Assembly: GCA_017532085.1 (NCBI GenBank)
Contig: JAFXJT010000015.1
Span: forward strand, 1 to 39,355
DNA length: 39,355 bases
Direction: 5' to 3'
Origin: Oscillospiraceae bacterium
Lineage (GTDB): Bacteria > Bacillota > Clostridia > Oscillospirales > Ruminococcaceae
How positions within the stretch are numbered: position 1 is the first letter of the stretch; every line of letters starts with the position of its first letter. Positions 100-15,973 of this stretch are shown one piece after another. A model generated the notes under the pieces. It had not been told where the DNA came from and made no database searches. It saw only the letters and a program-made list of their open reading frames with translations. Made by a program: the position numbers and the translations under genes.

Positions 100-173
100 T
101 GGAGGCGCGAACCAGATTTGAACTGGTGATCACGGTGTTGCAGACCATTGCCTTACCACTTGGCTATCGCGCC
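100..173 (-). tRNA. tRNA-Cys (anticodon GCA)
   Basis: Full cloverleaf on the minus strand: acceptor GGCGCGA paired with its 3' partner, anticodon loop CTGCAAC, T-loop TTCAAAT, and an encoded 3' CCA (TCCA end). It is the last gene of a four-tRNA operon. Confidence 0.95.
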
Positions 174-177
174 GATA

Positions 178-253
178 TGGAGCGGATTACGAGGCTCGAA
201 CTCGCTACCTCCACCTTGGCAAGGTGGCGCTCTACCAGATGAGCTAAATCCGC
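178..253 (-). tRNA. tRNA-Gly (anticodon GCC)
   Basis: Minus-strand cloverleaf beginning GCGGATT, with anticodon loop TTGCCAA, T-loop TTCGAGC and an encoded CCA (TCCA end). It lies 4 nt upstream of tRNA-Cys in the same transcript. Confidence 0.95.
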
Positions 254-256
254 ATT

Positions 257-333
257 TGGCGACCTGGATGGGACTCGAACCCACGACCTCCGCCGTGACA
301 GGGCGGCGTTCTAACCAACTGAACTACCAGGCC
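257..333 (-). tRNA. tRNA-Asp (anticodon GTC)
   Basis: Minus-strand cloverleaf beginning GGCCTGG, with anticodon loop CTGTCAC, T-loop TTCGAGT, discriminator G and an encoded CCA. The 5'G-3'G discriminator arrangement fits tRNA-Asp. Confidence 0.95.
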
Positions 334-338
334 ATGAA

Positions 339-411
339 TGGGAACAACAGGGCTCGAACCTGTGACCCTCTGCTTGTAAGGCAGATGCTCTCCCAGCTGA
401 GCTATGCTCCC
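339..411 (-). tRNA. tRNA-Val (anticodon TAC)
   Basis: First gene of the minus-strand tRNA operon. The acceptor GGGAGCA pairs with TGTTCCC, the anticodon loop is CTTACAA and the T-loop TTCGAGC. After discriminator A the DNA reads TTC, so CCA is not encoded and must be added by the CCA enzyme, unlike the other three tRNAs here. Confidence 0.95.
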
Positions 412-9363: not shown

Positions 9364-9386
9364 TAGCTCACAAAACCGCAGACGTT

Positions 9387-9506
9387 CCTCATCTTTCGAC
9401 GCTGTTGCTGCGTCGTGGGATTTGGCACCGTACAGGATGCACTTCGGATGCATCTTGTGGTTGCCGTGGCTTCTCAGGACCCGTTCCTCCGCCACTCTTG
9501 ATAAGG
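9387..9506 (-). promoter_or_regulatory. SAM-I (S-box) riboswitch aptamer
   Basis: Minus-strand sequence carries the S-box blocks in order: CTTATCAAGAG, GGCGGAGGAACGGG, CCTGAGAAGCC, CGGCAACC, GGTGCCAAATCC and GAAAGATGAGG. P1 forms between CCTTATC (9500-9506) and GATGAGG (9387-9393). It binds SAM and represses metK. Confidence 0.96.
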
Positions 9507-9515
9507 CACTATATT

Positions 9516-11700: not shown

Positions 11701-11936
11701 AATCAGAACTCCTTCCCTTTGATCGCAGCCTCCACACAAGCAGACAGAGCGACTTTTCGTTAATATTTGGAAGACATTTGTACAAAATATGAGAAATATT
11801 CATTTGCAATCCTGCAATATCGCAGATTTCCGTATCATAACAAAAAAACTGTATACATTCTGTGATGGTATTTTTGCAGGAACGGTCAATGCTAACACAA
11901 GCGGAAGAAAACCGCAATCAGAAAGGAGTCAAAACA

Positions 11937-13178
11937 ATGGAACAACGTCAAAAATCAACATCTGATTGCAAACAAAACCGTTTTCGAAAAGCCATCACTG
12001 CACTGATCGCGGCATTTGCACTGCTGGGCAGCAGTATGGGGTATTATGCAGGTACCCTGCCCGATCATTTCTACACCGAAGTCAACACGCCGCTTGAGCT
12101 GGAGACCGTTTTGCCGGTCACCGCAAGCACAAGCATTGCATCCAGCCATACTGCACAGGAAACTACCCTGCGGTTATTCGGACTGTTTCCGTTCAAAACG
12201 GTTGCATTAACCTCCGTGCAGCGTGCCGAGCTGTATCCCGGCGGAGAACCCTTTGGCATACGTATGCTGATGGCAGGTGTCATGGTAGTTTCCACCGGTG
12301 AAATCAGCACCGATTCCGGAAGCTGCTGCCCCGCCGAAGATGCCGGCATCCGTGTGGGCGATGTGATCCAGAGCATCAACGGAAAATCTGTGCACAGCAA
12401 TCAGGACATCCAAAAAGCCATTGCCGCTTCAGAGGGATCCCCTGTTTCTGTCACACTTCTGCGGGATCACGCACGATATACGTTTACGGTACACCCTGTT
12501 TTTTCCCGGCTGCATTGCCGCTGGCAGACCGGTATGTGGGTCAGAGACAGCACTGCCGGCATCGGTACGGTAACGTATTATATGGCAGCAGAAAATCAAT
12601 CAGCATATTTTGCCGGATTAGGGCATGCCGTCTGTGATGTCGATACAGGAGAACAAATTCCTCTCGCCAGCGGAGAAGTGGCAGCGGTACGCATCACGGA
12701 TGTACAAGCCGGACAACCCGGTATACCCGGCGAGCTTCATGGACAATTCGCCGGCACTGCAGATACAGGTGTATTGTTTTCCAATACCGAATGCGGTCTG
12801 TTCGGCAGCATGCATAAGCTGCCTCCAAACAAACAAGCCGTCGAGCTGGCATTTAAGCAGGAGGTCACCACCGGCGAGGCAATGATCTACACAACCATCG
12901 AGGGCGAATCTCCTGCTGCTTATACCATCGAAATCGAAGAAGTGCACAGTGCCGATACCGGTACCCGCAATATGGTGATTCATATTACCGATCCTGCACT
13001 GTTGGCGCTGACCGGTGGAATTGTACAAGGTATGAGCGGCAGTCCGATCCTGCAAAACGGCAGATTGATCGGGGCTGTTACGCATGTATTTGTGAAAGAT
13101 CCAACCAGAGGCTATGCCATTTTCGCTGAAAATATGTATGCACAAACCACAGCACAGCGCATCATGGAAACGGAATAG
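11937..13178 (+). CDS. spoIVB: SpoIVB, sporulation signalling serine peptidase
   Basis: 413 aa. SpoIVB is secreted from the forespore into the intermembrane space and triggers pro-sigma-K processing (family knowledge, S55 peptidases). Seen: an N-terminal membrane anchor (about 18-40), a PDZ domain (about 110-185) with AGIRVGDVIQSING, and the peptidase domain with His230 (GLGHAV) and nucleophile Ser367 in GMSGSP (365-370), followed by LIGAVTHVFV and DPTRGY, highly conserved in the family. The start is the ATG behind AGAAAGGAG; an in-frame extension of 25 codons lacks a site. Single-gene unit ending in a strong terminator. I saw no clear sigma-G promoter. Confidence 0.95.
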   Translation: MEQRQKSTSDCKQNRFRKAITALIAAFALLGSSMGYYAGTLPDHFYTEVNTPLELETVLPVTASTSIASSHTAQETTLRLFGLFPFKTVALTSVQRAELYPGGEPFGIRMLMAGVMVVSTGEISTDSGSCCPAEDAGIRVGDVIQSINGKSVHSNQDIQKAIAASEGSPVSVTLLRDHARYTFTVHPVFSRLHCRWQTGMWVRDSTAGIGTVTYYMAAENQSAYFAGLGHAVCDVDTGEQIPLASGEVAAVRITDVQAGQPGIPGELHGQFAGTADTGVLFSNTECGLFGSMHKLPPNKQAVELAFKQEVTTGEAMIYTTIEGESPAAYTIEIEEVHSADTGTRNMVIHITDPALLALTGGIVQGMSGSPILQNGRLIGAVTHVFVKDPTRGYAIFAENMYAQTTAQRIMETE

Positions 13179-13182
13179 GAAA

Positions 13183-13218
13183 AAAGGGCGTTTCTACCCG
13201 TGCAGAAACGCCCTTTCT
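13183..13218 (+). terminator. Bidirectional terminator between spoIVB and the HPr gene
   Basis: 13-bp perfect inverted repeat (AAAGGGCGTTTCT, 13183-13195 / 13204-13216) with an 8-nt loop. TTTC follows on the plus strand and TTTTTTCC on the minus strand, so it can end both spoIVB and the convergent HPr gene. Confidence 0.85.
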
Positions 13219-13316: not shown

Positions 13317-13589
13317 TCAGCGGCTCTCGTCGCTGAAACCGCTGTCAACAAGCTCAACCAGAGAAGCAACTGCCTGCTCCTCATCAGTACCGTCAGCGAT
13401 GATGCGGATGGCGGTGCCGCCCACGATGCCGAGGGAAAGGATGCCCAGCAGACTCTTGGCATTGACACGACGCTCTTCCTTCTCAATCCAGATTGCAGAA
13501 CGGAACTCGTTCGCCTTCTGAATGAAAAATGTTGCAGGACGTGCATGCAGACCAACCTGATTCTGAACCATGACATCTTTGATACACAT
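13317..13589 (-). CDS. ptsH: HPr phosphocarrier protein
   Basis: 90 aa, standard HPr size. His15 sits in GLHARPA, the site phosphorylated by enzyme I, and Ser46 sits in NAKSLLGILSLGI, the site of HPr kinase that signals catabolite repression with CcpA. The active histidine shows it is HPr rather than Crh. Start: AAAGGAGAGAAAGTTT before ATG. It is a single gene, not linked to enzyme I. A promoter about 70 nt upstream and a structured RNA with its own promoter further up (13682-13788) suggest layered control. Confidence 0.93.
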   Translation of the reverse strand: MCIKDVMVQNQVGLHARPATFFIQKANEFRSAIWIEKEERRVNAKSLLGILSLGIVGGTAIRIIADGTDEEQAVASLVELVDSGFSDESR

Positions 13590-13655
13590 AAACTTTCTCT
13601 CCTTTATGATTTCATATATTACTTATGGACAAAGCAAACGGCTCTGCTGTATGAG

Positions 13656-13683
13656 ATCATAACAAACACCGGAAGCCAGACAA
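13656..13683 (-). promoter_or_regulatory. Proximal promoter of the HPr gene
   Basis: TTGTCT (13678-13683), 16-nt spacer, TATGAT (13656-13661) on the minus strand. It overlaps the T run of the upstream RNA's terminator. Confidence 0.55.
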
Positions 13684-13788
13684 AAAATCCGCTGTCCATT
13701 GCCTGACAAAAGACAGCAACGATTCTCATTCTTCCGATTGCGGACAATCCATTTGCAGCACACTGCAAAGGCTTCTCCGCGAGCCTAT
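13682..13788 (-). ncRNA. Probable structured small RNA or attenuator upstream of the HPr gene
   Basis: No convincing reading frame lies here, but a strong promoter starts it and a terminator-like hairpin ends it. In order on the minus strand: hairpin AGGCT/AGCCT (about 13768-13785), hairpin TTTGCAG/CTGCAAA with a 4-nt loop (about 13752-13769), hairpin GATTG/CAATC with loop TCCG (about 13735-13748), then GCTGTC/GACAGC (13712-13717 / 13691-13696) followed by GGATTTTTTG. Predicted length is about 107 nt. It matches no 6S, SRP, tmRNA or RNase P signature that I know. It could be a free small RNA or the leader attenuator of HPr. Confidence 0.6.
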
Positions 13789-13794
13789 GCTACC

Positions 13795-13823
13795 ATTATA
13801 CAGATTAAACTGCATCTCGTCAA
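13795..13823 (-). promoter_or_regulatory. Strong promoter of the small-RNA candidate
   Basis: TTGACG (13818-13823), 17-nt spacer, TATAAT (13795-13800) on the minus strand: 11 of 12 consensus positions. The predicted start is near 13788. Confidence 0.8.
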
Positions 13824-13927
13824 CGTGTTTTATCCACAAAACCGTCATATTTGCCAAAAATTCTACGCAATGCCATATTACAAGGAGCTTTCTGCGCTTC
13901 TGTTTGGGCATATTCACGAATCGAAAC

Positions 13928-13965
13928 TGTTGAAAACCGTTGTTGAAAGCGCACAGTTTTCAACA
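13928..13965. repeat. Triple TGTTGAAA repeat forming a perfect inverted repeat
   Basis: TGTTGAAAAC (13928-13937) and GTTTTCAACA (13956-13965) form a perfect 10-bp inverted repeat, and a third direct copy TGTTGAAA (13941-13948) lies in the loop. It sits just downstream of trmD. There is no T run after it, so a protein-binding site or mRNA 3' structure is as likely as a terminator. A TTATCCACA (DnaA-box consensus) lies about 100 bp away at 13830-13838. Confidence 0.6.
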
Positions 13966-13982
13966 ATTGATTTTGTAGAAAA

Positions 13983-14696
13983 TCACAGCTTAGGATCTTT
14001 CTTTTGACAATTTACCCATTGCTCCCACAAATCCGGTCTTCGTTCCCGGGTAATATTCTGACTTTGCTCCTGCCGCCATGCCGCAATATTCTTATGATGA
14101 CCGCTGAGGAGCACAGGCGGAACCGTATCTCCTTCCCAGCATTCGGGACGGGTATACTGCGGATATTCCAGCAGACCGGAAAAATGGCTTTCTTCCTCAT
14201 AGCATTCGGGAGAAGGCAGCACATCCTCACACATTCTTGCCACAGCATCGGTCAGAATCAGTGCCGGCAGTTCACCGCCGGTCACCACATAATCTCCCAC
14301 CGAGATCTCCTCATCCACAATCCGATCCAGCACGCGCTGATCTACGCCCTCATAATGGCCGCAGAGCAAAAACAGCACGGGCTTCTGCGAAAGCTCGATC
14401 ACCTTTTTCTGCGTCAGCACGGTTCCCTTCGGTGACAGATATATCGTATGCGGTTTTTCATCATATTGTGCACAGACCGCTTTCCAGCAGTCATAGATCG
14501 GCTGTGCCTGCATCACCATGCCCATACCGCCGCCAAAAGGTGAATCATCCACACGACGATGGCGATCGGCAGTATACTCACGGATCTGATGACAATTCAC
14601 CTGCAAGGCACCTTTCGCTCTGGCTCTGCCCAAAATACTGGATGACAGTACCGCCTCGCACATTTCGGGGAACAGCGTAGCGATTTCGATTTTCAT
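13983..14696 (-). CDS. trmD: tRNA (guanine-37-N1)-methyltransferase TrmD
   Basis: 237 aa. Methylates G37 next to the anticodon, preventing frameshifting. Seen: N-terminal MKIEIATLFPEMC, DDSPFGGGMGMVM (SAM and substrate loop), the trefoil-knot motifs LLCGHYEGVDQRV and ISVGDYVVTGGELPA, and the C-terminal RPDLW. Length is normal. It starts 3 nt after the stop of an unknown gene, so it is translated as part of the rimM operon. Ribosomal protein genes rpsP and rplS, often in such operons, are absent. Confidence 0.97.
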   Translation of the reverse strand: MKIEIATLFPEMCEAVLSSSILGRARAKGALQVNCHQIREYTADRHRRVDDSPFGGGMGMVMQAQPIYDCWKAVCAQYDEKPHTIYLSPKGTVLTQKKVIELSQKPVLFLLCGHYEGVDQRVLDRIVDEEISVGDYVVTGGELPALILTDAVARMCEDVLPSPECYEEESHFSGLLEYPQYTRPECWEGDTVPPVLLSGHHKNIAAWRQEQSQNITRERRPDLWEQWVNCQKKDPKL

Positions 14697-14699
14697 GAA

Positions 14700-15437
14700 T
14701 TACGATGCCTCCGAAGAAGCCGCAGATTCCAATGTAATGCTATCCGCAATCTGCAGAATCGATTCCGTATTGAGGGCTTCGAAGAAAACAGAAATCCGCT
14801 GATTGGGGTTCCGATCGGGATAAATCATAGCAACAGCAGAAATATTATCTACAAACTCTGTGTTGATACGCAAAAATCCACGATATCCCTTACCATCCAA
14901 CCGATAAATGGTATCAAAGCGCTCATAGGTATCGTTTTTATAATCCGCAAGCTGATAAAACGTCTTGGCGACACTCGCATTGTTCATGGTAAAATATTCT
15001 TTGGTGATAGAATATTGCAGTTGGTCGATCTCATATTCGTTCTGCGGAACAGAAAGCGAATTGACATCACAGAATTCCTTCAATGCATCCGCAGAAATTT
15101 CCTCCGAATCATAGTAGGGAATTCCTGCAAAGAGAAACGGCGGACTGAAGGTAATCGTCAAATCCTGTCCGGACAGCTTAATGCGATTGGCAGATTCCGT
15201 GACCTGCAGATCCTTGGAGGCCTTCATGGTCATACCAAAGCCGCTGTATTCCTTTGCATCTTCAGGCAAGGAAGAAATGGAGGTAGGGAACTCCTTCACC
15301 TGCTCTTGCAAATGCGAATATTCCTTTTCCACCTTAAGATACCACGGCAAACCCGGGAATGCAAAAGCCCAGATCAATCCACCGGCAATTACCGCGCCGC
15401 CCACGGCACCCAAAGCGATTTTCCATGTTTTTTTCAT
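14700..15437 (-). CDS. Unknown membrane-anchored protein between rimM and trmD
   Basis: 245 aa, not recognised. An N-terminal MKK and hydrophobic helix (about 6-27, rich in Gly/Ala/Ile) suggests a signal anchor; no lipobox cysteine is present. The rest (about 35-245) is a soluble domain with alternating polar and hydrophobic strands, probably extracytoplasmic. The start has a GGAGAATC-like site 5 nt before ATG and lies 20 nt behind rimM. Its place inside the rimM-trmD unit is odd, as those genes act on ribosomes and tRNA. It may simply share the transcript. Confidence 0.75.
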   Translation of the reverse strand: MKKTWKIALGAVGGAVIAGGLIWAFAFPGLPWYLKVEKEYSHLQEQVKEFPTSISSLPEDAKEYSGFGMTMKASKDLQVTESANRIKLSGQDLTITFSPPFLFAGIPYYDSEEISADALKEFCDVNSLSVPQNEYEIDQLQYSITKEYFTMNNASVAKTFYQLADYKNDTYERFDTIYRLDGKGYRGFLRINTEFVDNISAVAMIYPDRNPNQRISVFFEALNTESILQIADSITLESAASSEAS

Positions 15438-15457: not shown

Positions 15458-15973
15458 TCAGTCAAACAAACCCGGAAGCGGTCGGATCACAACCACGCCC
15501 TCATCAACGGAAACAGAACAGACAACGTCAGGGATCACCGGTACCAAGCGTTCCTTTCCTGCTTCATCCCGAATTACATAAACATCATTGGCACCGGTCT
15601 GGAGCACATCGCTGATCGTACCATAGCAGACATCCGTATCAGCATCCAGCACGGAAAGTCCCAGCAGATCCTGGATAAAATACGTATCCTCATCCAAATC
15701 CGCATCATCACGATTCATATATAATATCGTATTGCGCAGCGCCTGCGCCTGCTCGACAGTATCCACACCGGCAAGCTTCATCAATACCATATTTTTTTGT
15801 ACCTTTGCTTGTTCTATGGATACGGCTATGGCATTCTCACCGTTGGGATTGCGATAAAGCGTATCGAATTGACAAAGGATCTCCGGGCTGTCACACCACG
15901 GCTGCACCTTCACGGTACCATTCAGGCCATGAACCGTAACGATCTTACCGATTTCAAGATATTGTTTTTTCAT
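15458..15973 (-). CDS. rimM: 16S rRNA processing/30S maturation factor RimM
   Basis: 171 aa. Binds S19 and helps maturation of the 30S head. The N-terminal beta-barrel begins YLEIGKIVTVHGLNGTVKV, the family signature, and the C-terminal PRC-barrel carries LGLSVLD, TGANDVYVI and LVPVIPDVV. Start: AAAAGGAGCC about 9 nt before ATG. First gene of rimM-unknown-trmD, behind a near-consensus promoter. Confidence 0.95.
   Translation of the reverse strand: MKKQYLEIGKIVTVHGLNGTVKVQPWCDSPEILCQFDTLYRNPNGENAIAVSIEQAKVQKNMVLMKLAGVDTVEQAQALRNTILYMNRDDADLDEDTYFIQDLLGLSVLDADTDVCYGTISDVLQTGANDVYVIRDEAGKERLVPVIPDVVCSVSVDEGVVVIRPLPGLFD

Follow-up and report, generated by a model that had tools for sequence, protein, structure and literature searches.

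A likely cis-acting leader RNA, limited to one genus, on the ptsH mRNA of Ruminococcaceae

HPr connects sugar uptake with gene regulation in Firmicutes. In a 39,355-nt stretch of contig JAFXJT010000015.1 from an Oscillospiraceae bacterium (hereafter the window), the HPr gene ptsH is preceded by a compact structured region below a strong promoter, which raises the question of whether this region is a free small RNA, a conditional attenuator of ptsH, or a part of the ptsH mRNA with some other role. A preliminary description, made from the sequence alone, had proposed one of the first two. Comparison with the ptsH leaders of the same genus indicates that the region is more likely the 5′ part of the ptsH mRNA than a separate small RNA, and it is likely a real, undescribed and genus-limited leader RNA that acts in cis.

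The locus, its promoter and its leader

The feature is encoded on the minus strand, in the gap that separates trmD from ptsH (Table 1). An inverted repeat with a T-rich tail follows ptsH, so that the transcript begun at TTGACG-17-TATAAT appears to have ptsH as its last gene, or its only one. Another inverted repeat, TTGTTGAAAGC...TTTTCAACAA (13939-13967), stands between trmD and the ptsH promoter, has counterparts in relatives, and is perhaps the trmD terminator. Elsewhere, the window contains a SAM riboswitch (9386-9507, minus strand, 87.6 bits in the Rfam scan) and four consecutive tRNA genes (103-411, minus strand). Three unannotated records filed as "Bacteriophage sp." (MT835581.1, MT837709.1 and MT836518.1) match the ptsH coding region at 70-76%, and are perhaps bacterial contigs filed as phage.

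Table 1. Features of the ptsH locus (positions of the window)
Feature	Position	Strand	Remark
SpoIVB-type peptidase gene	11862-13178	+	faces ptsH
Inverted repeat with T-rich tail	13183-13216		between ptsH and peptidase gene
ptsH (HPr, 90 aa)	13317..13589	-	PF00381, E 3.5e-29
ptsH 5′ leader, 205 nt	13590..13794	-	base after TATAAT to base before ATG
Shine-Dalgarno region AAAGGAGAG	13597..13605	-	mean unpaired probability 0.65 in window
P1 3′ arm GCAGAGCC	13640..13647	-	at -58 from ATG
Outer P3 stem, 3′ arm CTTCCGGT	13668..13675	-	past T run; predicted fold
T run TTTTTT after P3	13682..13687	-	sequence
P3 hairpin GCTGTC...GACAGC	13691..13717	-	preliminary description's terminator stem; half-swap test, 22 leaders
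Apical motif GTCAGG	13702..13707	-	[GA]TCAGG in hairpin apex, 22/28 leaders
Outer P3 stem, 5′ arm ATCGGAAG	13731..13738	-	predicted fold
First long hairpin GCGGA...TCCGC	13740..13780	-	minimum-energy and centroid folds
P1 5′ arm GGCTC	13781..13785	-	P1 supported across 28 leaders
ptsH promoter TTGACG-17-TATAAT	13795..13823	-	11/12 consensus bases
trmD	13983-14696	-	upstream neighbour
Gene for 245-aa protein	14700-15437	-	no Pfam match; between rimM and trmD
rimM	15458-15973	-	upstream neighbour

The genus was represented by 30 genomes, 29 of which carry HPr at E 1e-30 or better, and 28 ptsH leaders are complete; G016 (no HPr match), G021 (its locus L021 is cut by a contig edge) and a second copy in G025 were left out. 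The two ptsH copies of the G025 assembly, on contigs C18 and C32, have leaders of equal score and are perhaps an assembly duplicate. The locus L005 serves below as the nearest relative of the window: in a nucleotide tree L003 and L005 group together with a support of 0.906, the branch of L003 being inflated, and TrmD protein identity confirms L005 as nearest, at 84.3% against 81.5% for the next among 26 relatives compared (L007 has no TrmD).

In the window, TTGACG occupies 13823-13818 of the minus strand and is followed by a 17-nt spacer and by TATAAT ending at 13795. Both hexamers and the 17-nt spacer are identical in all 28 complete leaders of the genus, hence this is the promoter of ptsH and the region below it is the ptsH leader. 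The promoter of the preliminary description is thereby upheld, and its closed unit of ~107 nt becomes the first part of a 205-nt leader, whose transcript is predicted from the position of the -10 box to start near 13788. Leader length within the genus ranges from 146 to 281 nt. Outside it, in the 33 loci where a script located both promoter and gene start, 32 leaders have 78-152 nt and one has 201 nt, counted to a methionine that may be as much as 18 nt into the gene. A second HPr promoter had been placed in the T run (TTGTCT-16-TATGAT); it matches 9 of 12 consensus bases, sites of its quality number seven in 3 kb against 3.8 (sd 2.2) in shuffled sequence, and no counterpart was seen by eye in L005, so that we have rejected it as chance-level. 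The 28 genus loci have in common a conserved block 5′ of the -35 box, AATGTaGCATag.GgAGAAaTTT followed by TTTTGTGtAgAAAa (13824-13880 of the minus strand in the window), and GTAGAAATTT-like pieces are also present in some loci of other genera; the block has the look of a UP element or factor-binding site for ptsH.

The leader had been described as having no plausible reading frame. This holds only loosely, since the window leader does contain a TTG frame of 49 codons whose start is purine-rich. Close relatives L015, L017, L019 and L024 have in common a short ATG frame of 18-19 codons, and L027 and L028 a TTG frame of 54 codons; a leader peptide was rejected, no frame recurring genus-wide among the 28 leaders. 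Masking of the ribosome-binding site was likewise rejected, its unpaired probability running from 0.05 to 0.94 over the 28 leaders with no common masking.

Helices P1, P2 and P3 and the conserved loop

The 110-nt stretch below the promoter folds better than its dinucleotide shuffles (z -3.26, 0/200 as good), as does the window leader from its predicted start (z -3.75, 1/200 as good). Over the 28 leaders, z averages just -1.44 and runs from -3.78 to +1.15 (60 shuffles per leader). That there is a structured RNA upstream of HPr was thus a sound observation, borne out also by covariation in the genus, and its outline has changed. Instead of three short hairpins, the predicted fold has a single long hairpin that merges them, beside P3, and this long hairpin could not be aligned by eye with L005. 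The GCTGTC hairpin is in turn enclosed by a longer predicted outer stem, so that the structure would extend past the T run where it had been thought to end. In L005 a different stem is possible at the same place, CAGTGCGC/GTGCGCCTG; the two outer stems have -9.4 and -8.8 kcal/mol (n = 2). A hairpin just 5′ of the ribosome site, "P4", was dropped (mean z 0.03 over 28 leaders).

Covariation within the genus supports three helices, P1, P2 and P3. In most species P1 closes a domain of ~70-190 nt by pairing the first ~10 bases of the transcript with a segment that lies 56-84 nt 5′ of the start codon, within a search for its 3′ arm confined to 45-115 nt from the ATG. When the pairing energy of each species' own arms was compared with that of arms taken from different species, the own-arm sum over the 28 leaders was -350.4 against -289.1 (sd 9.3), and over 17 representatives -208.4 against -173.4 (sd 7.4), with 0/20,000 permutations as low in either set. 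These representatives, as well as the 13 of 22 used for P3, were chosen by eye so as to thin near-duplicates, and the segments for the 17 were set after the outcome was known of a first, looser test that was confounded and uninformative (own mean -18.3, cross mean -16.3). A control segment also has an excess of ~2 sd (449/20,000 permutations as low for the 28 leaders, 773/20,000 for the representatives), hence relatedness and composition account for part of the P1 signal. In 22 of the 28 leaders the best P1 duplex begins no later than predicted base +2. Among the other six is the window, in which P1 consists only of GGCTC/GAGCC with a bulged extension, starts from predicted base +4, and is absent from the minimum-energy fold begun at predicted +1, reappearing when six more 5′ bases are included; in these folds the P1 of the window is predicted to be weak.

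P3 is a hairpin with [GA]UCAGG at its apex, and the preliminary description had suggested that its hairpins be looked for in relatives. Homologues of P3 are present in 22 of the 28 leaders, six being without the motif, and their arms covary: with half-hairpins swapped among the 22, own pairs sum to -204.5 against -145.7 (sd 9.5), and in 13 representatives to -126.7 against -76.3 (sd 8.3), 0/20,000 permutations being as good in both. The arms of the window pair best of the 22 (-12.4, with row and column means of -6.2). For this count L008 (GTCAGGAG) was manually excluded, and the first ATCAGGAAG match in L027 and L029, which falls in the P2 loop, was skipped. For P2 and P3 together, an alignment of the 18 cores with a common P2-P3 layout, the window excluded, has 10 of 20 pairs changed on both sides against 5.7 in shuffled controls (3/500 as high), and 80.9% of its cells are paired, compared with 75.7% after shuffling and 19.9-49.6% after sliding. 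DNA operators (TAC-N5-GTA repeats) were rejected, partly by eye, as the source of P2; an RNA helix is favoured because one repeat's first inner base is compatible with the other's last. An alternative helix in relatives, CGGCTG/CAGCCG, was also rejected, being 87.5% paired with no pair changed on both sides.

The loop of P3 is retained on a changing stem. Its last five bases would pair in Watson-Crick fashion with CCTGA, a word absent from all 22 leaders and from the ptsH stretch that follows. If G-U pairs are allowed, 18 of the 22 have six-base partners, which share no position in the leader, and a loop pseudoknot was accordingly rejected; the recurrent partners of this kind lie inside the coding region, at ptsH +227 (9) and +236 (3). 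Since it is conserved on a rewritten stem and has no Watson-Crick partner in the leader, the loop looks, from the sequences, like a contact site. The window leader is tied to its relatives by promoter, position, a loop carried on a covarying hairpin and, possibly, P1.

End protection, contact or termination

We tentatively prefer, at somewhat under an even chance, to read this region as a ptsH leader with an RNA domain found only in the genus, acting in cis through protection of the 5′ end and contact at the P3 loop. P1 would keep the 5′ end of the ptsH mRNA double-stranded, which would slow decay from that end and so stabilise the message, while the [GA]UCAGG loop of P3 would serve as the contact point for a putative protein or RNA partner. 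Passages of PMC3997798 state that B. subtilis RppH requires a minimum of two unpaired bases at the 5′ end, with a preference for three or more. Taken with this requirement, a P1 that begins by predicted base +2 in 22 of the 28 leaders suggests protection from 5′-end decay. Such shielding would be weakest in the window, because P1 there is short, starts at +4 and is lost in the +1 fold. The loop could also be the whole point of the leader, with HPr output set by a protein or small RNA that recognises the hairpin, P1 being a mere scaffold. That the loop is kept while both arms are rewritten, and has no Watson-Crick partner in any of the 22 leaders, would fit this; on the other hand, six leaders lack the motif, and among the sites inspected no second [GA]UCAGG site was recognised at another gene, for which reason a dedicated partner would be needed, and we give this reading a small chance. 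A further version combines both, in that the [GA]UCAGG hairpin, set in a domain that closes the 5′ end, would read a cellular signal through a putative protein or RNA and thereby set HPr, the branch of the window and L005 having made it into a terminator; it would amount to an undescribed class of cis-regulatory RNA confined to one genus, and we consider it distinctly doubtful. The leader could also be a drifting spacer under loose constraint, whose folding would be a by-product of base composition. Its variable length, its modest mean folding z, the ~2 sd excess of the control segment and the shorter leaders that suffice in other genera all agree with drift, but the covariation of P1, P2 and P3 makes it quite improbable.

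The preliminary description took the P3 stem with its T run for a terminator. Stem and TTTTTT are indeed there, and no hairpin-plus-T-tract among the 28 leaders is stronger than that of P3 with GGATTTTTT (-12.3 kcal/mol, 1/30 shuffles as strong), which has a counterpart at the same place in L005 (-9.9 kcal/mol, 2/30 shuffles as strong). The stem is nevertheless the homologue of P3, and a T tract 12-40 nt after the loop start follows only two of the 22 P3 hairpins, those of the window and L005. Termination in this lineage is therefore possible, as modelled from hairpin energies, and as a function shared by the genus it is unlikely. An attenuator of ptsH, in which P3 and the T run would stop transcription unless some cue blocks or remodels P3, accordingly survives for the window and L005 and not genus-wide. 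A modest excess of hairpin-plus-T-tract sites at -8 or lower (9 of 28 leaders against 3.3 expected) speaks for it, yet these sites stand at differing places and 11 leaders are without any, while in both the window and L005 the predicted outer stems pair across the T run. The switch proposed to break the terminator, TCCGC with GCGGA, has both words in 11 of 28 leaders including the window and neither in L005, which leaves no conserved competing antiterminator, and the CAT_RBD antiterminator was not found in the 83%-complete genome of the window; even in this lineage attenuation is a rather unlikely account. The strong promoter, the compact fold and the T run would be explained by a free ~107-nt small RNA that has a promoter and a terminator to itself. 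This reading is poorly supported, because the terminator of its own that such a gene should conserve is found in two of 22 leaders and because P1, supported across the genus, pairs with sequence beyond the T run and nearer the gene; moreover, the same promoter precedes ptsH in all 28 leaders, and we hold this explanation to be highly improbable.

Known leaders and other places

mRNA stabilisers formed by 5′-terminal stem-loops include those of E. coli ompA and papA and the B. subtilis aprE leader. Like them, the ptsH leader has a paired transcript start 5′ of the ribosome-binding site. It differs in that its helix is long-range, encloses ~70-190 nt and holds a conserved loop; moreover, the helix of the window leaves ~3 5′ bases free, and the stabilising role is here a prediction only. 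In B. subtilis, ptsGHI is controlled by GlcT/RAT antitermination, which likewise places a structure before a pts gene. Here ptsH is without an adjacent ptsG, no RAT element was recognised by eye or with Rfam, and GlcT/RAT is a misfit since CAT_RBD (PF03123), found in 4 of 14 control genomes, has no match in the window's genome. ANTAR dual-hexaloop RNAs resemble P3 in having a small stem with a six-base loop, and passages of PMC8934654 place A at position 1 and G at position 4 of the target hexaloop. P3 does not fit because position 4 of [GA]UCAGG is A, and a single such loop was recognised; the ANTAR protein domain PF03861 has no match in the genome, nor in any of the 14 control genomes. With the riboswitch and leader families of Rfam the domain has in common that it is a covarying leader RNA in cis, and it matches none of them; in our judgement the aligned interiors appear too variable in sequence for a ligand pocket. 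A covarying RNA domain on the HPr mRNA would place HPr under post-transcriptional control in rumen and gut bacteria, and the leader offers a clean test of whether long-range pairing of the 5′ end protects mRNA in this genus.

No family of Rfam release 15 matches the region at gathering score; at E up to 5 there are two chance matches on the plus strand, to one snoRNA and one microRNA family. Across 18 loci, the window and 17 relatives, three sub-threshold matches include no bacterial leader family. Among the literature matches listed for ptsH or HPr leaders with structured RNA or attenuation there is no description of such a leader, and the main text of PMC8040213 does not contain ptsH, HPr or Ruminococc. 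A covariance model built from the relatives does not match the window leader. Searched through the genus with at most the best 139 first-look candidates scored per genome, it gives 19 strong matches in 18 genomes, all of them the ptsH leaders from which it was built plus the one G025 repeat, so that no new copy is added; of the weaker matches (E 0.03 and up), the best six (E 0.03 to 0.21) have no HPr motif. In 247 genomes of the family, with the best 16 candidates scored per genome, there are 12 matches at E <=0.01, one of them in the genus. The other 11 (L149-L159, E 9e-5 to 0.0095) have no HPr motif and add no further ptsH leader; eight look by eye like AT-rich hairpins, and L152, L153 and L158 have a TCAGG-type word near the match.

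The word TTGTCAGGCAA of the window occurs once in its genome, at the P3 loop. Within the genus, 23 of the 30 genomes contain the relatives' version of the motif, GCTGRTCAGGCAG, at a total of 39 places, of which 16 are at ptsH and 23 elsewhere; a reversed control pattern has 10. Thirty of the 39 loci were inspected: 11 are at ptsH and 19 lie in stop-to-stop frames of at least 231 aa, an argument against the non-ptsH sites that is weak because the ptsH leader sites themselves sit in frames of 54-272 aa; five of the remaining nine are ptsH by coordinates. Finally, ptsH leaders of the Ruminococcus flavefaciens type (L075, L077, L085, L090, L092 and L103) start with ATCAGCAA, and several have by eye a short hairpin with species-variable arms before GAGAATAGGAGAG, seemingly a second leader hairpin that is unrelated to the domain of the genus.
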